This document shows, one piece after another, positions 2,637 to 20,807 of a DNA stretch of 20,931 nucleotides. A program made the translations under genes and the position numbers. Positions within the stretch are counted from its first letter, which is position 1. The number at the start of each line of letters is the position of its first letter. The notes beneath the pieces are model-generated. The model was not told the origin of the DNA, searched no databases, and was given only the letters and a program-made list of their open reading frames with translations. This DNA is from a virus, in IMG/VR virus record IMGVR_UViG_3300006805_000201, positions 1 through 20,931 of that record; one strand, written 5' to 3'.

Positions 2637-3204
2637 ATACATAGCTGATCTGGCTGTTAAAAAAACAAAAGAGTTTAAAGAGGTCAAAGAGCTTTTGATT
2701 GCTAGTGGTATTGTTAGTGATAATGCGGAAACTGTCAAAAATGCTGAAACCATTGCCGCTATAAACAACGCCCTGACCGATCTGCAAGCCTCACAGTTCA
2801 TTGATCTGCTGATTAAGACTAAAGAGCCAGTGCGTGATACGTCATACTCTCAAAAGCGCATTAAAAAGGTTACTGAAATACTGGATGACATTAAAAAAGA
2901 GGTTGCCGCGTGGGATTTCCCAGACGCAAATACACCGCTTGATTATGGCAAGGCGGCAAACGCACTATATCCAAAGGTGGCAGCAGCTGTTAAGTTGCTC
3001 AATAACCCAGAGATTGACCCAAACACCCGGCAACTCAATCAAGAGATATTGTTTAGAGAGGTGGCAACTGCTATTTATGAAAAGACCTATGAAATGAACG
3101 CCTTTGATATGGAAATTGAACACACTACTGGCAGCGGCATTGATGAGCGCTATTATGGCATGGCTAAAGTGGCAAGTAATAGCGTTTCGACAGGAGCAGT
3201 GTAA
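2614..3204 (+). CDS. Unknown helical protein upstream of the minor capsid gene
   Basis: A 196-residue protein that I do not recognise. It is mainly helical, with Lys/Glu/Ala/Leu-rich stretches at about 1-100, then a segment with Pro, Asp and Tyr. It has no membrane span, signal peptide or cysteine. Its start has a GGAGG ribosome-binding site about 8 bases upstream, inside the preceding gene, and its stop overlaps the next ATG (TAATG), so the three genes are translationally coupled. It could be an accessory head protein, or the N-terminal helical part of a minor capsid protein encoded separately from the MuF domain that follows. Both are inferences from position. Confidence 0.6.
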   Translation: MASETQNKYIADLAVKKTKEFKEVKELLIASGIVSDNAETVKNAETIAAINNALTDLQASQFIDLLIKTKEPVRDTSYSQKRIKKVTEILDDIKKEVAAWDFPDANTPLDYGKAANALYPKVAAAVKLLNNPEIDPNTRQLNQEILFREVATAIYEKTYEMNAFDMEIEHTTGSGIDERYYGMAKVASNSVSTGAV

Positions 3205-3884
3205 TGGAGGAGTATATACGCAATTTCCTTTTGAGCAGTGCAGCCAAAGCGCAAGGCGATGCTACTAAGAATGCCCGGCAGTCCGGCAAAAAGCCAACCG
3301 TTACGCGCACTGAAAGCAGTGATGCCTGCAAATGGTGTCAATCAAAAACTGGCACATTCACTGACCCTAGTAGCGAGATATTTCACCGGCATGGTGGTTG
3401 TGAGGGTAAGATTACTACCAGCGGCTATAGGTCGCGCAATGGCTTACTCAGTAACTACAAATCTGGCAGCTTTACATCACGCACAGCGGAAACGACTGGC
3501 GCAGTTGATAGCAAAGGCAGGCAGATTGTATACCGCGGCACAGGCAATAATACAAGTGGCTTAGGCAACATGTTTGGCAATGCGCTCTATGTTGCGAGTG
3601 ATCAGTCAACCGCAGCCCAATTTGGTAATGTCGCACAATTAAGTATGCCCATCAAAGCCAGTGATATTTTGCTAATCGCTACTGACAACGCATTAGACAA
3701 GTTGCAATTAGATGCTCAGAAATGGGCAGTACGCACTGGCGCTAGTTTAGACCCTAGCGAATATTTACCTGCCTATGTTTTGCATCTTGGCTATAAAGCA
3801 GTTGAGGTAAAAGCGACTGTTGACCCATTGGCTGGCATCGCCATAGTTGACCCCAAAATTGTGAAAAAAATGCTTGCACAGTAA
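3204..3884 (+). CDS. MuF-type minor capsid protein with ART-like C-terminus
   Basis: A 226-residue two-part protein. Residues about 38-70 carry Cys42-x2-Cys45, then Phe60-His-Arg-His-Gly-Gly-Cys66, the Cys/His signature of MuF-like minor head proteins that sit near the portal and are packaged with DNA. Residues about 105-226 resemble ADP-ribosyltransferase-fold domains: Tyr110-Arg111-Gly112, then Gly-Asn-Ala-Leu-Tyr-Val-Ala-Ser (125-132), then Ala-Ala-Gln-Phe (137-140). This is the Arg / Tyr-x-x-Ser / aromatic pattern of the fold. The catalytic Glu motif is unclear (Glu201 is a candidate), so activity is uncertain. If active, it could be injected and modify host proteins, as phage T4 Alt does (family knowledge). 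Its ATG overlaps the previous stop. Confidence 0.65.
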   Translation: MEEYIRNFLLSSAAKAQGDATKNARQSGKKPTVTRTESSDACKWCQSKTGTFTDPSSEIFHRHGGCEGKITTSGYRSRNGLLSNYKSGSFTSRTAETTGAVDSKGRQIVYRGTGNNTSGLGNMFGNALYVASDQSTAAQFGNVAQLSMPIKASDILLIATDNALDKLQLDAQKWAVRTGASLDPSEYLPAYVLHLGYKAVEVKATVDPLAGIAIVDPKIVKKMLAQ

Positions 3885-4272: not shown

Positions 4273-4914
4273 ATGCAAAGTATCATTGCTACCGTAAGAG
4301 TAAAGCAACCGATCAAAACCACTTTGCATAAAAATGTTATTCAAGTTTCAGTGGGCAAAACTGGCAGCGCAGGGCGTGAGATTGAACTACAATCTGACGG
4401 TGAAACTGTGCAATGGCGCTATGCAGGTGAGCCAGTATGGTATGACCTAGTTGATATTTCAGAGTTGCAAGGTGAAACAGGCGCGACTGGTCCGCAGGGC
4501 GCTCAGGGTATTCAGGGTATTAAAGGTGATACTGGAAATACCGGCGCAACCGGGGCGCAAGGTCCGCAAGGCATCAAAGGCGATAAAGGCGACACTGGTA
4601 ACACAGGCGCTACAGGCGCGACTGGCGCACAAGGTCCAGCTGGTGTAAACGGTACAAATGGCACAAATGGGCGTGAGGTTGAATTACAGAAATCAGCCAC
4701 GCACATTCAGTGGCGTTATGTTGGTGATGTTTCTTGGACTAACCTAGTTGCATTAGTGGACATCAAAGGCGACACCGGCGCTACAGGCGCGACTGGCGCA
4801 ACCGGGGCGCAAGGCATTCAGGGTATCCAAGGCGCTACAGGCGCGGCTGGTGCTGACGGCGCAGATGGTGTTGTTGATTATGCTAGAGTAATTGCCTTAG
4901 CTACGGTATTATAA
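4273..4914 (+). CDS. Collagen-like tail fibre protein
   Basis: A 213-residue protein with two Gly-x-y blocks, about residues 67-133 and 166-199, that should form a collagen triple helix and hence a trimeric rod. Before each block is a copy of a short module (about 34-66 and 133-165) with Gly-Arg-Glu-(Ile/Val)-Glu-Leu-Gln, then Gln-Trp-Arg-Tyr and a later Trp/Leu-Val segment ending in Asp-Ile. This module occurs together with collagen repeats in many phage fibres. The internal duplication suggests growth by module copying. Ribosome-binding site AAAAGGA at 4257-4263. It likely belongs to the receptor-contacting part of the virion together with the genes on either side. Confidence 0.8.
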   Translation: MQSIIATVRVKQPIKTTLHKNVIQVSVGKTGSAGREIELQSDGETVQWRYAGEPVWYDLVDISELQGETGATGPQGAQGIQGIKGDTGNTGATGAQGPQGIKGDKGDTGNTGATGATGAQGPAGVNGTNGTNGREVELQKSATHIQWRYVGDVSWTNLVALVDIKGDTGATGATGATGAQGIQGIQGATGAAGADGADGVVDYARVIALATVL

Positions 4915-6911: not shown

Positions 6912-7339
6912 TGCCTGTGGTTACTCTCGCGCTAGAGGGTAATGTACCCAGCAAGAAAAACCAGCGCATAAATACCAAAGACGGCTTATCATTTGCCAGC
7001 AAAGCATTCACTGACTGGCAAGATACCGCTTTAATCGCGGTCCGCCACCAAACTCGCCACCGTTTTCTAGTACCAGTGCAAATTGAGGTGATTATATATT
7101 TTGCGACATTAGGAAAAGCTGACGTAGACAATAGACTAACCAGCATTTTGGATATGTTGACAGAGGCATTAGTGCTTAAAGATGATAAATGGGAAAACGT
7201 ACCGCTTATGAAAGTTGAGGCGGCATATCGCCCCAAAGCGCCCGGCGCATTCATACGCATAGAGGAATTGCCAGCTGATTTTTTTGGTGCTGAATATGAG
7301 GCAGCGGCAGCCAAACGCGACAAGCGGAAACGGAAGTAA
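6911..7339 (+). CDS. rusA-like: RusA-family Holliday-junction resolvase
   Basis: A 142-residue endonuclease that cuts four-way DNA junctions, of RusA length. Key family features: N-terminal Pro-Ser-Lys-Lys-Asn-Gln-Arg (13-19), the acidic motif Asp71-Val-Asp73-Asn-Arg-Leu followed by Leu-Asp-Met-Leu, and Asp91-Asp92-Lys-Trp. These match the metal-binding Asp residues of RusA. The C-terminus is strongly basic. Its ATG overlaps the previous stop (TAATG), so it is coupled to the fibre gene. In phages such enzymes clear branched DNA before or during packaging (family knowledge). The place is unusual: between fibre genes and the portal rather than among replication genes. Confidence 0.85.
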   Translation: MPVVTLALEGNVPSKKNQRINTKDGLSFASKAFTDWQDTALIAVRHQTRHRFLVPVQIEVIIYFATLGKADVDNRLTSILDMLTEALVLKDDKWENVPLMKVEAAYRPKAPGAFIRIEELPADFFGAEYEAAAAKRDKRKRK

Positions 7340-7343
7340 AGCA

Positions 7344-7418
7344 CTTATGTTACAATTACAATATCTGGTATAATAATAACCAATAACAACTACGCTGACG
7401 GTTGCGGTAAAACTGGCT
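7344..7418 (+). repeat. Duplicated promoter/leader element, copy 1 (portal)
   Basis: Two blocks match copy 2 at 12134-12188. Block A (7344-7365) runs from CTTATGTTACAAT to CAATATC. Block B (7392-7418) is identical over 27 bases: it begins ACGCTGACGG and ends TAAAACTGGCT. In this copy the -10 of block A is TACAAT rather than TATAAT, and the 26-base stretch between the blocks (5 bases in copy 2) carries a fresh extended -10. Confidence 0.75.
7366..7374 (+). promoter_or_regulatory. Extended -10 promoter for the portal unit
   Basis: TGGTATAAT is an extended -10; the predicted start is 7381, giving a 51-base leader that contains the 27-base shared box and the AAAAGGA ribosome-binding site. A second, weaker extended -10, TGTTACAAT, lies at 7348-7356. 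Confidence 0.65.
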
Positions 7419-7431
7419 TAAAAGGACAGAG

Positions 7432-8778
7432 ATGAACCCACAGCCAGCAGAAAACCCAATGGAAACCAAAGCACTCGCCTTAGCCCAAACGCTACTGGCT
7501 AAACTCGCTATGTGTGAGCCAAAGGTGCAGGACAAATACGACTACTACAACGCGGATAATGACATCCGTGATTTTGGCATCTCAACACCTATCCGCATGC
7601 GAAACATTACACCCGGCATTGGCTGGGCAAGTCGCGCAATTAACACCCTCTCTGATCGCGTTGTATTCGATGGCTTTGCCAAAGATACATTTGGCTTGAA
7701 TGCTTACCTAGAGGCTATTAACGGCTACCGCATATTTTCTGACGTAAAGCATGACGCATTTATTGGCGGTTGCTCATTTGTGGCTATTGGCGATGATGAG
7801 GATACTGATAGAAAAGTCCTAGTGCCATTCACTGCTGGTGAGGCTACCGGCGTGGTTGATCAAACGACTGGACTGCTCAAATACGGCTTGGGCGTTATGC
7901 GCTGGGCAGAGCCACAGCCTAAAAAGCGTGGTATTCGCTTTGCGCCTGCTGACTACATTGTATTCACACCTGTATTTACCGCCACATTTATAAACCGCGA
8001 GCTAGTTGAAATCACACCTAACCCAACAGGGCGCACATTATTGCACCCAATCACCCACCGCGCAAGCTCTAACCGCCCTCTAGGTAAGTCGCGCCTTAGC
8101 AATACGGTCCGCCGCATCATCCAAGAGGTTGGACGGCTCAAACGCCGTGAGGAAATTGCTGAGGAGTTTTATGCATTGCCACAGCGCTACATTACCGGCT
8201 TGGCTGAGGGTGCTAAAAAAGATAGCACGCTCGATAGTGCCATTGGTAAAGTCTGGGCAATTACTAAGGATGAGGATGGCGATGCACCTACTGTTGGTCA
8301 GCTCGCTCAGATGTCCATTGATCAGTTTGAAACATCCAAAAAGGATAAGGCGCGTGATTTCTGTGCTGAAACTGCCCTTACACTACGCAACCTAGGATAC
8401 GAAACCAGCAACCCATCAAGCTCAGAAAGCCTAGTAGCAATGTCAGATGACCTGTTATTGGAGGCAAGCAACGCCCAAGAGGAAATGGGCAGGCAGATCA
8501 AAGAAATCTGTATTACATTGCGCCTTGCACTTGATGACAATAGCAACATCCCTGACGCTTTGCGCGAGGTTGTACCAGCATGGAAACCGATATTTCAGGT
8601 TGATGTGGGCGCAACTGGTGATGCTATGTTCAAACTCAGTCAGGTATTCCCAGAGCTTATTGGCACAGTTGCCGGCTACCGCATGATGGGTATTGGTATC
8701 CGTGAGGCTGAGGAATTAGCCAAGAGGCGAGCCGCCAGCACATCTGGCTCAGTATTTAATGCCGGAGGAGGTCAGTAA
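7432..8778 (+). CDS. Portal protein, SPP1 gp6-like
   Basis: A 448-residue protein of normal portal length. It would form the dodecameric ring at the capsid vertex through which DNA is packaged. The N-terminal part has a Tyr/Asp/Asn-rich stretch (about 37-48), a Pro-Gly-Ile-Gly-Trp-Ala motif (about 61-66) and Ser-Asp-Arg-Val-Val-Phe-Asp-Gly. Then follow a His-Asp-Ala-Phe-Ile-Gly-Gly-Cys-Ser-Phe core and, in the C-terminal half, Pro-Gln-Arg-Tyr-Ile and long helices. This is the layout of SPP1 gp6/actinophage-type portals. Ribosome-binding site AAAAGGA. It is coupled to the connector gene that follows. Unusually, the portal lies about 5 kb downstream of the capsid gene, after the fibre cassette. 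Confidence 0.8.
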   Translation: MNPQPAENPMETKALALAQTLLAKLAMCEPKVQDKYDYYNADNDIRDFGISTPIRMRNITPGIGWASRAINTLSDRVVFDGFAKDTFGLNAYLEAINGYRIFSDVKHDAFIGGCSFVAIGDDEDTDRKVLVPFTAGEATGVVDQTTGLLKYGLGVMRWAEPQPKKRGIRFAPADYIVFTPVFTATFINRELVEITPNPTGRTLLHPITHRASSNRPLGKSRLSNTVRRIIQEVGRLKRREEIAEEFYALPQRYITGLAEGAKKDSTLDSAIGKVWAITKDEDGDAPTVGQLAQMSIDQFETSKKDKARDFCAETALTLRNLGYETSNPSSSESLVAMSDDLLLEASNAQEEMGRQIKEICITLRLALDDNSNIPDALREVVPAWKPIFQVDVGATGDAMFKLSQVFPELIGTVAGYRMMGIGIREAEELAKRRAASTSGSVFNAGGGQ

Positions 8779-9221
8779 TGGCAGGCGTAACCACACCAGT
8801 AACCAAACCTGATGCATATGCTAATGCATCTGATCTAACCGCCTACTGGAAAGCACCCACTGACGCTAACCGCGCCAACTACATGCTCAAAATGTCCAGC
8901 AACCGCTTGCGCCAGATTGCCACAGATGTTGGTGTTGATCTTGATGCCAAAGTAAATGCTGATATTGTCTATTTCTTAAACGTGCAGTCAGTCGTTATGG
9001 AGGCTACCAAGCGAGCGTTGCAAGCGCCTACTGATCAACAGCCTACTGAAAGCTATGGGCAAACAGCCGGTCCATACAGTGAGAACTTTAAATACAGCAA
9101 CCCTGCTGGTGATTTATTCTTTAAAAAGGCAGAGCTGGGGCTACTTAACCTATATGGTCAGCAATCCATGTACGGTATTAGCACCTCTCAGACAGATATT
9201 TATAGTGGGTATAGCAGTTAG
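8778..9221 (+). CDS. Head-tail connector (Gp19/Gp15/Gp42-like)
   Basis: A 147-residue protein whose ATG overlaps the portal stop. The N-terminal half is helical (Leu-x3-Trp, then Arg-Leu-Arg-Gln-Ile), followed by a helix with Asn-Val-Gln-Ser-Val-Val-Met-Glu-Ala. A beta-hairpin-like segment Ser-Tyr-Gly-Gln-Thr-Ala-Gly-Pro-Tyr-Ser-Glu and the sequence Ser-Asn-Pro-Ala-Gly-Asp-Leu-Phe-Phe-Lys-Lys-Ala-Glu follow. This last pattern is characteristic of the Gp19/Gp15/Gp42 adaptor family that docks under the portal. The stopper and tail-terminator partners usually found directly after it are instead at 71-761. Confidence 0.75.
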   Translation: MAGVTTPVTKPDAYANASDLTAYWKAPTDANRANYMLKMSSNRLRQIATDVGVDLDAKVNADIVYFLNVQSVVMEATKRALQAPTDQQPTESYGQTAGPYSENFKYSNPAGDLFFKKAELGLLNLYGQQSMYGISTSQTDIYSGYSS

Positions 9222-9229
9222 GCGTTGCA

Positions 9230-9541
9230 ATGGTGGAATACTTTGCCGCAACAGCGCCAGCAAATGACCCTGTAAGTTTTTACTTTACTCAGGGCGTGCT
9301 AGGCGTTACCGTTATAGTATTAGCGTTAGTCATCCGCTTTTTATTCAGCTACTACACTAAAAAGGTTGATGAAAAAGATGCTGAGATCAAAGCACTGAAC
9401 ATTGCAATGCTGACCAATGAGCGCACACACACGGTTGATTACCGTGAGATGGCTAAGAATGATCAAACAGTGTTGTTAGGAAATGCACAGGCACAGGAGC
9501 TATTAGCGAGTAAAATAGAGGCTGTAAAAGGTAGGCGATAA
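9230..9541 (+). CDS. Small single-pass membrane protein with coiled coil
   Basis: A 103-residue protein. The N-terminal 20 residues are polar, residues about 21-42 form one hydrophobic span (Val-Leu-Gly-Val-Thr-Val-Ile-Val-Leu-Ala-Leu-Val), and the rest is a charged, probably coiled-coil helix with a basic end. The topology (N-out, C-in, by the positive-inside rule) resembles small holin-like or accessory membrane proteins of phages, but no family is certain. It has no strong ribosome-binding site and lies 8 bases after the connector stop. A dedicated holin is probably the gene at 19457, so this may act elsewhere, for example at the membrane during infection. Confidence 0.6.
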   Translation: MVEYFAATAPANDPVSFYFTQGVLGVTVIVLALVIRFLFSYYTKKVDEKDAEIKALNIAMLTNERTHTVDYREMAKNDQTVLLGNAQAQELLASKIEAVKGRR

Positions 9542-9543
9542 CT

Positions 9544-9774
9544 ATGAGCTGGTTTAAGCGAAAAGATAGAGAGATACCCATTGTGGTGCAGCCACCTGTT
9601 GTGAACCGCGTAGAGATCGAGTTACACAAGGGCGCGAGCGAGCAAGCCGCCAAAAAAGCGGATGCTGTTAATCAACACGTTAAGGATTTATTGGTTGAAA
9701 ATGGCTTTACGCTTAAAATAGCTATAGCGGCTGGCGCACAAATACGACATTCAAAGCAAGGTGGAAAAAAGTAA
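9544..9774 (+). CDS. Unknown 76-residue basic protein
   Basis: I do not recognise this protein. It starts Met-Ser-Trp-Phe-Lys-Arg-Lys, a basic/aromatic N-terminus of a type seen in membrane-peripheral peptides. It has a short strand (Val-Glu-Ile-Glu-Leu), a helix rich in Ala/Lys, a hydrophobic stretch Leu-Lys-Ile-Ala-Ile-Ala-Ala-Gly-Ala, and a Lys-rich end. No cysteine is present. It lies 2 bases after the stop of the upstream membrane protein and ends just before the start of the next one, so the three are probably one functional group. Confidence 0.5.
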   Translation: MSWFKRKDREIPIVVQPPVVNRVEIELHKGASEQAAKKADAVNQHVKDLLVENGFTLKIAIAAGAQIRHSKQGGKK

Positions 9775-9775
9775 C

Positions 9776-10171
9776 ATGGATATTCAAATATTAGCATCAC
9801 TACTACTAATAGGTAGGCTCATATCAGAGGGCTTTATTATTGCCGTACTCAGGAAACAGTGGCGTATACGCAAAACCGCCATACATCCGCGCCTAAGAGC
9901 ATTACGGCGCGTTTTAACGCTATTAGCTGTGCTGGTGTTCATTGGTAACATTTACCCATTGCTTTTGGATGCATACACCCTTTATGATAGCGCGGTCCGC
10001 ACCTCTCAAACGGTCAACCTAGTGGGCGTGTTCTATTCGCTTGATAATAACCTTACATTTATGCTTGCCTCAATCCTGATATGGACGCTATACAAGCTCT
10101 CAGACGTAGTTATTGAAGTGGCTGAATTGATCACTGGCAAACCAATAAACGATTTGCCCAAGCGAAAATAG
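9776..10171 (+). CDS. Small three-span membrane protein
   Basis: A 131-residue membrane protein with likely spans at residues 4-24, 46-66 and 92-116, a strongly basic loop between the first two (Arg-Lys-Gln-Trp-Arg-Ile-Arg-Lys) and a basic tail. I chose ATG 9776, preceded by AAGGTGG at about 9758-9764; a GTG at 9761 would add five residues but overlaps the upstream gene. No family is recognised. A membrane protein in the neck/tail gene block is unusual for a virion gene. It could be a superinfection-exclusion or envelope-interaction factor, or a lysis accessory; the sequence does not decide. Confidence 0.55.
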   Translation: MDIQILASLLLIGRLISEGFIIAVLRKQWRIRKTAIHPRLRALRRVLTLLAVLVFIGNIYPLLLDAYTLYDSAVRTSQTVNLVGVFYSLDNNLTFMLASILIWTLYKLSDVVIEVAELITGKPINDLPKRK

Positions 10172-10180
10172 TGCTATAAT
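10172..10180 (+). promoter_or_regulatory. Extended -10 promoter for the tail-tube gene
   Basis: TGCTATAAT overlaps the stop of the preceding gene. The predicted start is 10187, leaving a 60-base leader, the longest simple leader here. The terminator at 10829 closes this one-gene unit, which suits an abundant structural protein made separately. Confidence 0.7.
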
Positions 10181-10246
10181 CAAAACATAAGCAGAGCTAA
10201 CCCTAGTGGCGTGTTGTGCTAACAATCCTCAACAGGAAATACTATC

Positions 10247-10810
10247 ATGGTAAATGACGCAACAAAAGTATCATTTGGTAAACCTAAAGCCACTGGCGCT
10301 GTTTTTGTAGCACCTTATGGCACAGCCTTACCTACCACAGCTTGGGCAACTTTGAATGCTGCATTCAAAAACCTTGGCTATGTTAGCGAGGACGGTTTAG
10401 TAAATGGCGTTGAAACCGATGTAGAGGACGTAAACGCTTGGGGCGGTGATCTGGTTCTATCAGGTCAAACCACTTTCAAGGAAATGTTTACCGTCAATCT
10501 GCTCGAAACCAACGCGGATGCTTTGAAAACGTATTATGGCACTGATAATGTTGTGGTTGAAGGCAACGGTTCAATTACCGTTACTCAATCAAGCGATGTA
10601 CTGCCAAACGTTAGTGTAGTATTTGAGATGGTTATGACTGGTGGACGTATCCGCCGTATAGTCGTGCCAAACGCTCAGATCACTGACCGCAGCGGTGAGA
10701 TCACCTATGTTGATGGCGAGGCTGTAACATACCCAGCGGTATTTGTAGCTTACCCAGACGCAAACGGCGACACTCACAAAGAGTACATTGCAACAGCAGC
10801 ATCAAGCTAG
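10247..10810 (+). CDS. Major tail tube protein
   Basis: A 187-residue protein of typical size for the siphovirus tail tube. Features that fit are Gly-Ala-Val-Phe-Val-Ala-Pro-Tyr-Gly-Thr-Ala-Leu-Pro (about 17-29), Leu-Gly-Tyr-Val-Ser-Glu-Asp-Gly-Leu (about 43-51), Ala-Trp-Gly-Gly-Asp (about 64-68) and a C-terminal half of strands (Ile-Arg-Arg-Ile-Val-Val-Pro). This pattern is common in tail tube proteins of phages of Gram-positive bacteria. It would stack in rings around the tape measure. It has its own promoter and terminator, and the tail-assembly chaperone gene follows, the usual order. Confidence 0.8.
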   Translation: MVNDATKVSFGKPKATGAVFVAPYGTALPTTAWATLNAAFKNLGYVSEDGLVNGVETDVEDVNAWGGDLVLSGQTTFKEMFTVNLLETNADALKTYYGTDNVVVEGNGSITVTQSSDVLPNVSVVFEMVMTGGRIRRIVVPNAQITDRSGEITYVDGEAVTYPAVFVAYPDANGDTHKEYIATAASS

Positions 10811-10828
10811 TAGCAATACGGCAGAATG

Positions 10829-10855
10829 CGCCCGGTCCTAGTGCCGGGCGTTTTT
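10829..10855 (+). terminator. Intrinsic terminator after the tail-tube gene
   Basis: CGCCCGG (10829-10835) pairs with CCGGGCG (10844-10850) across an 8-base loop, followed by TTTTT (10851-10855). The stem is GC-rich and perfect. Confidence 0.9.
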
Positions 10856-10860
10856 GTTTA

Positions 10861-10869
10861 TGTTATAAT
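10861..10869 (+). promoter_or_regulatory. Extended -10 promoter for the chaperone gene
   Basis: TGTTATAAT; predicted start 10876. The leader of about 29 bases includes the ribosome-binding site TTGGAG before the ATG at 10905. Confidence 0.65.
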
Positions 10870-10904
10870 TCTAAGTACGATAAATTAAGGATTGGAGTAA
10901 TCTT

Positions 10905-11228
10905 ATGGCTGAAAAAAGCACTGTAAAAGAAATTGAATTAGACGGTTATACATTCACAGTTGATACTGACCTGCTGGATGACGTTGACGCATTTGAGCTT
11001 ATTGATCGCATCGAAAACAAAGGGCAAGTTGTTGCCGTTGTGCCGTTGCTGACATTCCTGATTGGCTCAAAAGGCTATGATGATATGAAAGCTCACTTTG
11101 CTGACACTGACCGCAAAGACTACATTGCCAAGCACCCAGAGGCTACTGACTACAAGGGCAAGTTTCGTGTTAGCAAACTGTCTGAGGTGTACCAAAAAAT
11201 CATTGAGAACTTTGACCCAAAAGGCTAA
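10905..11228 (+). CDS. Tail-assembly chaperone, short (G-like) form
   Basis: A 107-residue acidic protein directly after the tail tube gene. Such proteins bind the tape measure during tail assembly but are absent from the finished virion. Strand-like Tyr-Thr-Phe-Thr-Val-Asp-Thr-Asp-Leu-Leu, a helical middle (Phe-Glu-Leu-Ile-Asp-Arg) and Leu-Leu-Thr-Phe-Leu-Ile-Gly fit the known type. The last sense codons CCA AAA GGC before TAA hold the slippery heptamer CCCAAAA, and a second reading frame (-1) stays open for 136 codons beyond it. This is the gene layout of lambda G/GT and its many relatives. Confidence 0.85.
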   Translation: MAEKSTVKEIELDGYTFTVDTDLLDDVDAFELIDRIENKGQVVAVVPLLTFLIGSKGYDDMKAHFADTDRKDYIAKHPEATDYKGKFRVSKLSEVYQKIIENFDPKG

Positions 11229-11269
11229 CTCTAATACGGATACGCTGGCAGTATCCCGATGAATTAGAG
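11216..11269 (+). other. Programmed -1 ribosomal frameshift element
   Basis: The slippery heptamer CCCAAAA (11216-11222) is in the correct frame (C CCA AAA). After a 6-base spacer that includes the zero-frame TAA, a nested hairpin follows. The outer stem is CTCTAAT (11229-11235) with ATTAGAG (11263-11269). The inner stem is GGATAC (11238-11243) with GTATCC (11251-11256) around a 7-base loop. Heptamer, spacing and downstream structure are all canonical. Confidence 0.85.
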
Positions 11270-11632
11270 GCAGATTTTCAGCAGTATTATGGCTTAGACA
11301 TCGCGGCGCTTAAACCAGCTAGGGCAGCGCGGTTGCTGTTTCAGTTGCCGCGATCATGCCGCGTATCCTGTGCCTTTGAACCAGCAAACCAATGGGGCTG
11401 GGATGAGGTATTTGCTAACAAGACAAACCACCTATTAGAACTGCTACTGTGGCAAGCCGGCACACCAACCAAAAAGGGTGAGCGAGCAAGGCACAAAGCC
11501 AACAAACCTAAGCCGTTTATGCCTGACTTTATGCGCCATTCAGAAAAGGGTACTGGCATGAATGAGAGTGTTGAGGCAATGACCGTTGATGATGTTAAGA
11601 GCTGGCTTGCTGTACCGCGTTCTGGCTCATAA
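11216..11632 (+). CDS. Tail-assembly chaperone, frameshift extension (T-like part)
   Basis: This frame has no plausible start of its own near its beginning. It is entered by a -1 slip at CCCAAAA, giving a predicted 242-residue fusion: 106 residues from the upstream frame and 136 from here. The extension begins Arg-Leu-Thr-Leu-Ile-Arg-Ile-Arg-Trp-Gln-Tyr-Pro-Asp-Glu-Leu, contains Tyr-Tyr-Gly-Leu-Asp and Leu-Lys-Pro-Ala-Arg-Ala-Ala-Arg-Leu-Leu (helical, typical of the second part of actinophage-type chaperones) and ends in a Lys-rich linker and a short helix. A TTG at 11333 could only start a truncated version. The fusion would be a minor product bridging tube subunits and tape measure, as gpGT does in lambda. 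Confidence 0.8.
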   Translation, partial: PKRLTLIRIRWQYPDELEADFQQYYGLDIAALKPARAARLLFQLPRSCRVSCAFEPANQWGWDEVFANKTNHLLELLLWQAGTPTKKGERARHKANKPKPFMPDFMRHSEKGTGMNESVEAMTVDDVKSWLAVPRSGS

Positions 11633-11838
11633 AAGCACTCCCCTACCACTCCCCCGACCCTAAATTAGTACAAAAAGCGAACATTGCAATTAACAGGGGT
11701 GGCGACCACTCCCCTGCCCTACCGAAACACAATTTTGACAGGCTCGCAAGGTGTTGGCGGTTTTTTCAGGCGACACCCTAGGCAGAGCAGGGGAGTGTGC
11801 TTATGTTAATCACTATACGCATGAGCTATACTAAGCAT
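11633..11838 (+). ncRNA. Structured non-coding gap with CACTCCCC repeats
   Basis: This 206-base gap is the longest apparently non-coding stretch of the tail region. It holds CACTCCCC(T/C) at 11636-11644, 11647-11655 and 11707-11715, and a reverse copy GGGGAGTG at 11790-11797. CACTCCCCTGC (11707-11717) is an 11-base perfect inverted repeat of GCAGGGGAGTG (11787-11797). The same segment can instead pair locally with CAGGGGTGG (11694-11702), so two exclusive folds are possible. An inner stem, GGTGTTG (11750-11756) with CGACACC (11771-11777), encloses a loop with a T6 run. It could be a regulatory leader, a phage small RNA or a cluster of protein-binding sites. Function unknown. Confidence 0.5.
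11827..11832 (+). promoter_or_regulatory. -10 box giving a leaderless start
   Basis: TATACT ends at 11832; seven bases on is 11839, exactly the A of the ATG. It lacks the TG extension present in most other promoters here. No ribosome-binding site precedes the ATG. Confidence 0.5.
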
Positions 11839-12126
11839 ATGAGCAAAGATGTATCGTTTTCATTAGACCCAGCAGGTGGTCAGGACATACTTGTAAATCT
11901 TGCCGCGGCAACCATAAAAGAGCGTGGGCAAGCCATTGCAGCGCGAGCGCAGAGCATGGCATCTAGCATGTCCAGCGACCCACCTGACATCACCATCACA
12001 TCAGCACCCGGCACTATTAAGCGTGGTGTTCGCGCCATTGCTACTATTCGCGCAACTGGTAAAAACGCGCATCAAAATTACATTGGGCATCAGGTATTAG
12101 CGAAAGCCAAAGACGCTGGGCGATAA
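11839..12126 (+). CDS. gp10-like neck / tail-completion protein, leaderless
   Basis: A 95-residue, Ala-rich protein. It opens with a helix-like region containing Ala-Ala-Ala-Thr-Ile-Lys-Glu-Arg-Gly-Gln-Ala-Ile-Ala-Ala-Arg-Ala (about 24-39), then a Pro-rich turn and two strands (Ile-Thr-Ile-Thr, Arg-Ala-Ile-Ala-Thr-Ile-Arg-Ala), and ends with a basic helix. This is the general plan of HK97 gp10-like neck proteins of phages of Gram-positive bacteria. In-frame starts also exist at 11797 (GTG), 11803 and 11821; I chose 11839 because the -10 box predicts transcription starting there. It would normally lie beside the stopper and terminator genes; here it sits alone before the tape measure. Confidence 0.5.
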   Translation: MSKDVSFSLDPAGGQDILVNLAAATIKERGQAIAARAQSMASSMSSDPPDITITSAPGTIKRGVRAIATIRATGKNAHQNYIGHQVLAKAKDAGR

Positions 12127-12133
12127 GTAACAG

Positions 12134-12188
12134 CTTATGTTATAATTTACAATATCAAACCACGCTGACGGTTGCGGTAAAACTGGCT
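12134..12188 (+). repeat. Duplicated promoter/leader element, copy 2 (tape measure)
   Basis: Block A (12134-12156) runs from CTTATGTTATAAT to CAATATC, and block B (12162-12188) is 27 bases identical to 7392-7418. Only 5 bases separate the blocks here. The position relative to a structural gene start is the same as in copy 1. Confidence 0.75.
12138..12146 (+). promoter_or_regulatory. Extended -10 promoter for the tape-measure unit
   Basis: TGTTATAAT; predicted start 12153. The leader of 65 bases contains the shared 27-base box. The AAAAGG-like ribosome-binding site (about 12192-12197) is about 20 bases from the ATG, unusually far. Confidence 0.65.
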
Positions 12189-12217
12189 AATAAAAGGCAA
12201 AGAAACGCAACCAAACC

Positions 12218-14131
12218 ATGGCAGACATCGGAACAGCATACGTCAGAGTAGCACCCAACATGACCGGCATACAGGGCAAAATTGCCGCTGGTTTTAAAGG
12301 TGCAGCTGGTCCAGCCACCGCCGCACTAGGCGATGAGGTTGAAAAAAATAGTGGTCCATTCCAAAACGCCCTAGGTAAGCTGGGCGGTTTTGCTAAAGCT
12401 GGTGGTATCGCTATTGCCGCTGGCATGGCAGCTGGCGCAGCTGGCGTTGCCGCATTAGCCACAAAGATGGTTTCAGCAGGCGCAGAACTAGAGCAACAGC
12501 TTGGAGGTTCTGAGGCAGTGTTTGGCGACTTTGCCAAAAACATTCAAGCCACTGCTGATGATGCCTATACCAATATGGGCTTATCACAAAATGAGTTCTT
12601 GCAGGGCGCTAACAAAATGGGTTCGCTATTCCAAGGAGCTGGCTTTGATGTTCAAAGCTCAATGAAAATGTCGCAGGACAGCATGCAACGTGCATCAGAC
12701 GTTGCCAGCATCATGGGCATTAGCACAACTGACGCACTAGAGGCTGTAACTGGCATGGCTAAGGGCAACTTTACCATGATGGACAACCTAGGTGTGGCAA
12801 TGAATGATACCGCCATTGGTGCATACGCCATGAGCAAGGGCATCAACAAAAGCACATCTGAAATGTCCATACAGGAAAAGGTTGGACTGGCACAGCAGAT
12901 GTTCATGGAAAAGACCGCCAAATATGCTGGTAACTATGCCAAAGAAAACGATACCTTAGCTGGCTCGATCAACACCACCAAAAAAGCCTTTGAAGATTTT
13001 ATGGCAACCGGCAACGTAACTGGCTTTGTAAACAGCCTAGTAAACACCATCAAGATTGCAGTACCTAAGATTGTTGAGGCATTACCAAAGCTGGTTGATG
13101 GCATAGGCGCTATCCTAAAGGCAGTTGTGCCAGCATTGGCAGCCGCATTGCCTACACTCATCCCTGCCCTTATTAGCGCCGTACAGGGCTTGATTAACGC
13201 GCTGATCACTGCCCTACCTACAATCATCCAAAGCCTGCTGACGGCACTGCCTATGTTTATCAGTGCGTTTATACAGCTATTCTTGGCACTGGTCCAAGCA
13301 TTGCCTCAGATCATTCAGATTATCGCAGCCGCTATACCGCAGGTCATTACAGCGCTTGTGGACGGCTTAACCAACCCAGAGGCACTTACAGCCATGATCA
13401 TGGGCGCAATACAGCTATTCCTAGCCATCATCACTGCCCTACCGCAGATTATTGTAGCTTTGGTCAATGCACTGCCGGTAATCATCCAAAACATCGTTAA
13501 AACGCTCACAAGCTCGCAGTTCATCAATATGATGATCAATGCAAGCATTCAGCTATTCATGGCGCTAGTAAAGGCTATACCGCAAATCTTGGGCAGCCTA
13601 GGCAGTGCAGTGTGGAAAATCTTTAACGTCATTGCTGATGTACTCAGTCCGGGCAACCTAGCGCGTATTGGTGGCGACATGATCAAAGGCTTGTGGAATG
13701 GTATTAGCAACCTCGCAGGCTGGGTAATGGATAAGATCAAAGGCTTTGGCAAGCAAATCATGGATGGTATTAAAGGGTTCTTTGGTATTCACTCGCCATC
13801 AACCGTATTTGCTGATATTGGTATGAACCTAAACAAAGGTTTGGCTAAAGGTCTTGATGACAGTGCCGGGCTAGTTACCAAATCTATGAATAACATGACC
13901 AATGATGCTTTGAGCGCTGTTGTTAATCCAATGGTTAGCTCAGAGGTTGCATTTGGTGGCGCTAGTGGCGCAGTAGCTGGCTCAGGTGGTGGAAACACTA
14001 CCAGCCAGAGCGTGGCAATCCAAACGGTTGTGCTTGGTGATGCTAGTGCCGTTAAAGAGTTCTTTAAACAGCTTGGGCAGGATACAATAAACGTGGGTAT
14101 GGGTATGACACCTGTGCAGGGAGCGCAATAA
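12218..14131 (+). CDS. Tail tape measure protein
   Basis: A 637-residue protein, the second longest in the window after the tail-tip gene, placed after the tail-assembly chaperone as expected. N-terminal residues 1-80 contain a Gly/Ala-rich hydrophobic segment. Residues about 85-270 are helical. Residues about 275-480 are a hydrophobic, Pro-punctuated repeat region (Ala-Leu-Pro-x-Ile-Ile and variants), typical of tape measures of Gram-positive phages and thought to be membrane-active on ejection. The C-terminus has Phe-Gly-Ile-His-Ser-Pro-Ser-Thr-Val-Phe (about 521-530), a hallmark of the family. By the usual rule of about 0.15 nm per residue the tail would be roughly 95 nm (inference). No closer ribosome-binding site or in-frame start is visible. 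Confidence 0.9.
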   Translation: MADIGTAYVRVAPNMTGIQGKIAAGFKGAAGPATAALGDEVEKNSGPFQNALGKLGGFAKAGGIAIAAGMAAGAAGVAALATKMVSAGAELEQQLGGSEAVFGDFAKNIQATADDAYTNMGLSQNEFLQGANKMGSLFQGAGFDVQSSMKMSQDSMQRASDVASIMGISTTDALEAVTGMAKGNFTMMDNLGVAMNDTAIGAYAMSKGINKSTSEMSIQEKVGLAQQMFMEKTAKYAGNYAKENDTLAGSINTTKKAFEDFMATGNVTGFVNSLVNTIKIAVPKIVEALPKLVDGIGAILKAVVPALAAALPTLIPALISAVQGLINALITALPTIIQSLLTALPMFISAFIQLFLALVQALPQIIQIIAAAIPQVITALVDGLTNPEALTAMIMGAIQLFLAIITALPQIIVALVNALPVIIQNIVKTLTSSQFINMMINASIQLFMALVKAIPQILGSLGSAVWKIFNVIADVLSPGNLARIGGDMIKGLWNGISNLAGWVMDKIKGFGKQIMDGIKGFFGIHSPSTVFADIGMNLNKGLAKGLDDSAGLVTKSMNNMTNDALSAVVNPMVSSEVAFGGASGAVAGSGGGNTTSQSVAIQTVVLGDASAVKEFFKQLGQDTINVGMGMTPVQGAQ

Positions 14132-20238: not shown

Positions 20239-20292
20239 CTTATGTTATAATTACACCACAATATCAACCAAACATCGCAGACGTGGACTACA
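20239..20292 (+). repeat. Diverged relative of the duplicated leader (ParB-like unit)
   Basis: The promoter CTTATGTTATAATTAC and the following CAATATCAA match the start of copy 2 (12134-12158). Further on, CGCAGACG resembles CGCTGACGG of the 27-base box; the rest has diverged. Similarity to copies 1 and 2 is visible but not as clean. Confidence 0.45.
20243..20251 (+). promoter_or_regulatory. Extended -10 promoter for the ParB-like gene
   Basis: TGTTATAAT, a near-perfect extended -10; predicted start 20258, leader of about 58 bases ending in AAAAAAAGGAGC before the ATG at 20316. Confidence 0.65.
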
Positions 20293-20315
20293 CGGAAAAA
20301 AAGGAGCAGGCGACT

Positions 20316-20807
20316 ATGGGCAAGCAAGAGGTAGAGGTGAAAATCTATGTGGAAAAGCTGAGTAAGCTAGTCCATAACGATAAAAACCCTCGATACATCA
20401 AATCTAAAAAACACCAAGAGCTGGTTAAGTCGCTCAAAGATTTCCCAGAGATGAAAGACATCAGGGAAATTGTCATTGATGAAAACATGATCATCTTGGC
20501 TGGTGATAAGCGCACATACGCATTAGAGGAGCTAGGCTATTCTGATGTGAGGGTCAAGCAGGTCATTGGTCTGACTGATGCTAAAAAGCGCGAGTTTATC
20601 ATTAAAGACAATAATCATAGTGGTGATTGGGATACAGACATTCTAGCCAATGAATGGGATATGGATGAGCTGACCGATTGGGGCGCAGACTTTAAGTTTG
20701 GTGGCGGTGCTGAAAAAGAAAAAGACGATCAGGGCGATTACAAAACGCATGAGGTAACATGTCCTGAATGTGGGCATCACTTTGAGTTGTCGCAAGCCAA
20801 AGAGTAA
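20316..20807 (+). CDS. ParB/sulfiredoxin-like domain protein with zinc ribbon
   Basis: A 163-residue protein. Residues about 8-130 fit the phage ParB-N-like fold: Asn-Pro-Arg-Tyr (24-27), Leu-Val-Lys-Ser-Leu-Lys-Asp-Phe-Pro, Ile-Leu-Ala-Gly-Asp-Lys-Arg-Thr-Tyr-Ala-Leu (60-70, the nucleotide-binding/nuclease-type motif), and Asp-Asn-Asn-His-Ser-Gly-Asp-Trp-Asp (98-106), often seen in phage ParB-like proteins near DNA-modification or terminase genes. The C-terminus adds a Cys-Pro-Glu-Cys-Gly-His-His zinc-ribbon half (149-155). I chose ATG 20316 because of the AAAGGAGC ribosome-binding site; an upstream extension reaching 20151 would run through the divergent promoter region. Confidence 0.7.
   Translation: MGKQEVEVKIYVEKLSKLVHNDKNPRYIKSKKHQELVKSLKDFPEMKDIREIVIDENMIILAGDKRTYALEELGYSDVRVKQVIGLTDAKKREFIIKDNNHSGDWDTDILANEWDMDELTDWGADFKFGGGAEKEKDDQGDYKTHEVTCPECGHHFELSQAKE

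Follow-up and report, generated by a model that had tools for sequence, protein, structure and literature searches.

Why should two unrelated genes of one phage, those for the portal and the tape-measure proteins, be preceded by the same 27 bases? The window analysed here is the whole IMG/VR record IMGVR_UViG_3300006805_000201, a fragment of 20,931 bases, and the promoters, leaders and genes of the four operons located below are all on the + strand. Positions 7392–7418 and 12162–12188 agree letter for letter, as a sequence-only reading had noticed, and the record holds no exact copy beyond these two. The upstream block, CTTATGTTA(C/T)AAT to CAATATC, is common to both as well. That reading saw no clear self-pairing in the box, but we find that the box fits a compact H-type pseudoknot with compensatory changes in both stems.

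The portal leader reads A.CGC.UGA.CGGUU.GCG.GUAA.AACUG.G at 7392–7416, ahead of the portal gene at 7432–8778 (phrog_104 by PHROGs). The tape-measure leader at 12162–12186, with the same 25 letters, precedes the tape-measure gene at 12218–14131 (phrog_58 by PHROGs). A further bona fide copy, overlooked at first, is located at 833–859 upstream of the head scaffolding protein gene (862–1335, phrog_233), reads A.CGGU.AA.CUC.ACCG.GAAAGGAAC.GAG.G and has covarying relatives. The diverged relative noticed at 20239–20292 is real, sharing the promoter and the leader architecture with a weak stem 2. Its leader, A.CGUG.GA.CU.A.CACG.GAAAAAA.AG.G at 20281–20304, stands before a ParB-like gene (20319–20807, phrog_620 by PHROGs), which in the related contig G310 is followed by the small and large terminase genes in the same operon. 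The early suggestion that one leader marks head, tail and ParB-like units finds support, and it widens to the scaffold/capsid, portal, tape-measure and ParB-like operons.

Between the scaffold and portal genes, the predicted protein of 3204–3884 has a C-terminal half that reads like a mono-ADP-ribosyltransferase domain (YRGTG...), and a Pfam search of this protein gave no match. A collagen-like protein with Gly-X-Y repeats is encoded at 4273–4914. No tRNA or tmRNA was found in the 20,931-base record. In two relatives, a 109-base tRNA match to a 71-position model (L126:14018-14126 and L137:9587-9695, both on the − strand) sits immediately upstream of the tape-measure leader, on the other strand, and an intron or a long arm is possible.

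Is the box more than a local duplicate? Portal and tape-measure protein searches of viral contigs gave 40 and 80 loci, respectively, and a version of the box stands at the same two sites, before the portal and tape-measure genes, in ~40 related IMG/VR contigs. Every intact portal leader has it in the same place, as do the leaders of close tape-measure relatives, with an extended −10 promoter (TGnTATAAT) ahead of each. Chance is excluded because the box recurs at the same genes in ~40 contigs, and the conservation beyond a recent duplication, on which the sequence-only reading had staked its case, is there. A regex scan of these portal and tape loci found the box essentially only at those leaders, plus a few chance-like matches. 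The boxes fall into two length classes. The first, found chiefly at portal genes, combines CGG/CCG with a junction of one nucleotide, and the second, chiefly at tape-measure genes, has UU and CGGUU/AACUG.

A coding role of the box is out, as 1-nt indels break the frame and a start codon is absent. When covariation was weighed against sequence conservation, base pairing and a few end nucleotides were the main conserved features. The consensus fold is A-CGN-(NNA)-CNN(NN)-N'CG-G(NNAAN)-(N'N')N'N'G-G, in the order of A, stem 1 strand 1, loop 1, stem 2 strand 1, an optional junction, stem 1 strand 2, loop 3, stem 2 strand 2 and G. The two stems have 3–5 bp each and are flanked together by the 5′-A and the 3′-G. 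Loop 1 has 1–3 nt and ends in A, and loop 3 is A-rich and begins with G. The loop lengths vary by 1–2 nt without loss of pairing.

Each variable stem position takes 3–5 standard pair types across the 42 elements. They are C-G, G-C, A-U, U-A and U-G at position 3 and U-A, G-C, U-G and A-U at position 4 of stem 1, and G-C, U-A, A-U and G-U at position 2 and C-G, G-C and U-A at position 3 of stem 2, although these counts come partly by construction in that the descriptor demands pairing. Of 24 distinct portal-class leaders, 22 form a fourth pair in stem 1 (A-U, U-A, G-C or U-G), a result that no shuffle out of 100,000 equalled. In tape leaders, the strand facing AACUG switches from CGGUU to CAGUU. 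The scaffold-leader relatives have CGGU/ACCG, CGAG/CUCG, CGGG/CCCG, CAGG/CCUG or CGCU/AGCG in stem 1 and CUC/GAG or CGC/GCG in stem 2. The ParB-like leaders pair in 100% of the stem 1 cells (0/500 shuffles), and their stem 2 has 2 bp, only CU/AG in the record; it is also 2 bp long in some scaffold leaders (L042 and L146).

In Saccharibacteria assemblies, distant relatives retain the fold while its letters change, for example CGU/ACG and CGGUA/UACUG (L123), CGA/UCG and CAG/CUG (L122), and CGU/ACG and CGC/GCG (L126). Two stems in pseudoknotted order, each with compensatory changes, are found. From the loop lengths, both stems would be able to form simultaneously, and two alternating hairpins instead of one pseudoknot are possible.

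The fold is also specific to its sites. With the descriptor, which was drawn up post hoc after data inspection, 19/19 portal, 22/22 tape and 23/28 scaffold gene-anchored leaders matched, as against a shuffled rate of ≤0.001 and 0/38 major-tail leaders. These gene-anchored sets are a fairer test than the pair counts. Relaxed, combined with a −10 and run over both strands of seven related contigs (217 kb), the descriptor gave 26 matches, all at scaffold, portal, tape-measure or ParB-like genes. The reversed sequence gave none, nor did unrelated tape-measure loci (646 kb) or the phages Aster, r1t and TMW 1.1381 P1. The last three are distant portal relatives, so shared ancestry of the portal lineage does not by itself explain the conservation.

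A looser viral scan reached CATGT/ACATG (L149) and CATGC/GCATG (L175), each before a scaffold gene, although the pattern left stem 2 unspecified and such single matches are weaker evidence. Several of its other matches (e.g. L140 and L155) look like chance. The scaffold protein of L149 and L175 is absent from 244 genomes of one searched bacterial class, and known phages gave it weak partial matches only.

The leaders stand at a steady distance from their promoters. From the −10 to the pseudoknot it is 17.2 nt (sd 0.7) in the portal and 15.0 nt (sd 0.8) in the tape class, and all of these leaders lie 14–19 nt behind TG-extended −10 hexamers. The tape-measure and ParB-like operons of the record have TGTTATAAT at 12138–12146 and 20243–20251, the ParB-like hexamer being of the same type. 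The scaffold/capsid operon has TGCTATAGT at 806–814, and its relatives keep TATG-n-TATA(A/G/T)T ~17–22 nt before the pseudoknot. The portal copy does contain the extra stretch that had been pointed out, with TGGTATAAT at 7366–7374, and this is taken as the working portal −10 because its distance to the pseudoknot is constantly 16–19 nt. It is not a newly arisen one, as had been proposed, since the double −10, with the upstream −10-like element TATGTTACAAT (7346–7356) conserved, is the usual portal layout in relatives.

The same promoter type occurs without the pseudoknot at the major tail unit and at the gene at 10905, so the pseudoknot is not just one of the promoter's components. A second, different conserved leader occupies 10172–10219, ahead of the major tail gene at 10247. 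Its hairpin, GCAGAGC...GUUGUGC, has an internal G-G mismatch and a variable, seemingly covarying tip, and is present in 28 of 38 major-tail leaders, likewise behind TGnTATAAT.

On the downstream side, the fold meets the ribosome-binding site. The Shine-Dalgarno AAAGGA is inside loop 3 in the scaffold leader, that of the ParB-like leader overlaps stem 2 strand 2, and those of the portal and tape leaders are within ~10 nt downstream of the fold. In the tape-measure leader of the record (12187–12217), the sole AAGG is at least ~16 nt away from the ATG. A CAACCA-like stretch ahead of this ATG is conserved.

By these sequence comparisons, the box is the DNA of a 5′-leader RNA that fits a pseudoknot, and we consider it probable that this RNA gates the scaffold/capsid, portal, tape and ParB-like operons together, most likely at translation initiation. 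The pseudoknot would form just after the transcript start, hinder 30S binding once formed and be recognised as a fold by a common factor, which may be a phage protein, a host protein or the ribosome itself. Translation initiation is favoured because, in every class, the fold encloses the Shine-Dalgarno, borders on it or comes within ~10 nt of it, and a common factor because one fold is spelled differently from leader to leader. A fold-recognised RNA would be a better fit than a DNA box or a small RNA target, since base pairing and a few end nucleotides are what is mainly conserved.

The distance from the pseudoknot to the start codon is more variable than that to the −10, so a role in transcription or mRNA stability would also suit. 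The remote AAGG of the tape-measure leader and the 2-bp stem 2 of the ParB-like and some scaffold leaders likewise count against the preferred reading. The pseudoknot might shield the late mRNAs from 5′-end dependent decay with no regulator involved, which we judge unlikely, though it has the most in its favour among the alternatives. The portal and tape pseudoknots are ~8–15 nt from the predicted transcript start, at the nearly fixed −10 distance, and the fold alone is conserved. A pure stabiliser, however, would avoid the Shine-Dalgarno, which the scaffold and ParB-like copies overlap, and the two pseudoknot-free promoters of the same type also speak against it.

An effect on RNA polymerase has a lower probability still. 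No intrinsic terminator was found between the pseudoknot and the gene in the leaders read, as a transcription attenuator would have. The put RNA of phage HK022 is made of two stem-loops in the early leader. An antiterminator of this kind, acting from the nascent RNA on the polymerase, would suit the promoter-proximal position of the pseudoknot and the intrinsic-terminator-like sites between the units (2314–2336 and 10828–10851). Right after the latter site, however, a new promoter begins at 10861, so no read-through is needed there, and one small pseudoknot on late operons contrasts with two stem-loops on early ones. The strong terminator-like hairpin directly followed by the extended −10 promoter of the 10905 gene (10828–10870) is a layout that recurs in relatives. 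HK022 put is likewise a promoter-proximal, cis-acting phage RNA (PMC9378689), but it suppresses termination on early transcripts, whereas the leaders here overlap the ribosome-binding site.

An operator or activator site that works at the DNA level, located downstream of the promoter, is very improbable. The strong sequence similarity inside the portal and the tape classes would agree with it, but the stem letters change as compensated pairs, the pairing survives the changes in loop length and the leaders of one phage differ in letters. A recent, functionless duplication or gene conversion, suggested by the 27-base identity in the record, is refuted by the relatives, in which the two copies are both present and in most cases spelled differently, at 60–80% protein identity.

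The gating 5′-leader RNA that we prefer resembles a few known systems without matching one. A known RNA family is out, as no Rfam 15 family reaches the gathering score, and a permissive Rfam search of 7300–7500 gave only a chance microRNA match. The preQ1-I riboswitch is alike in being a very small leader pseudoknot of the H type whose third loop is A-rich, but here there is no Rfam match, the core letters are unconserved between leaders and the genes are those of the virion. The E. coli rpsO (S15) operator is likewise a pseudoknot at the ribosome-binding site (PMC3014915), while here several operons and no ribosomal protein gene are concerned.

The nearest is the translational operator of gene 32 in T4, T2 and RB69, which likewise is a small H-type pseudoknot placed in the 5′ leader of a phage mRNA, close to the ribosome-binding site (PMC3014915, PMC535899). 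According to a 2010 review, it is perhaps the sole viral case of a pseudoknot in translation autoregulation (PMC3014915). The present leaders differ in serving four operons of one phage (scaffold, portal, tape measure and ParB-like), with no single-stranded DNA-binding gene, and in having shorter stems closer to the Shine-Dalgarno. They also lack the UUAA(A) repeats of the A+U-rich tract before the gene 32 start and show only AAAGGA-type tracts. Because the gene and the downstream tract differ, the phage leader is not a member of the T4-type operator. No earlier report of such a leader was found in paper searches.

The closest portal relatives outside viral collections (56–58%) are in Saccharibacteria or unnamed assemblies. 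The phage family probably infects Saccharibacteria, and the same host for the record itself is inferred only. A distant member (L180–L182) carries three pseudoknot leaders on a 61-kb Saccharibacteria contig, G001:C2. It is probably an integrated prophage because a serine hydroxymethyltransferase gene and a large serine recombinase gene are near one end of the contig. Among 294 class-mates of this Saccharibacteria genome, a looser −10 plus box pattern matched 6 genomes, in which only two or three sites look genuine and phage-borne. A host-wide leader is out, as only phage-like contigs or chance-like matches were seen, and this essential absence points to a phage-borne element.

Pseudoknot operators are rare in DNA phages. 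One fold placed on several operons per genome in dozens of phages provides a natural set for studying fold-only recognition, and its simple signature can be used to spot such phages in metagenomes. For the Saccharibacteria-linked phages, on whose gene control we found almost nothing in the literature searched, it is a concrete regulatory element. More tentatively, and short of an even chance in our estimate, the leaders may define a late regulon by RNA shape, in which one fold, spelled in different letters on four operons of a genome and across divergent phages, would be read through its shape by a single factor governing when, or in what dose, the virions of Saccharibacteria viruses are assembled.
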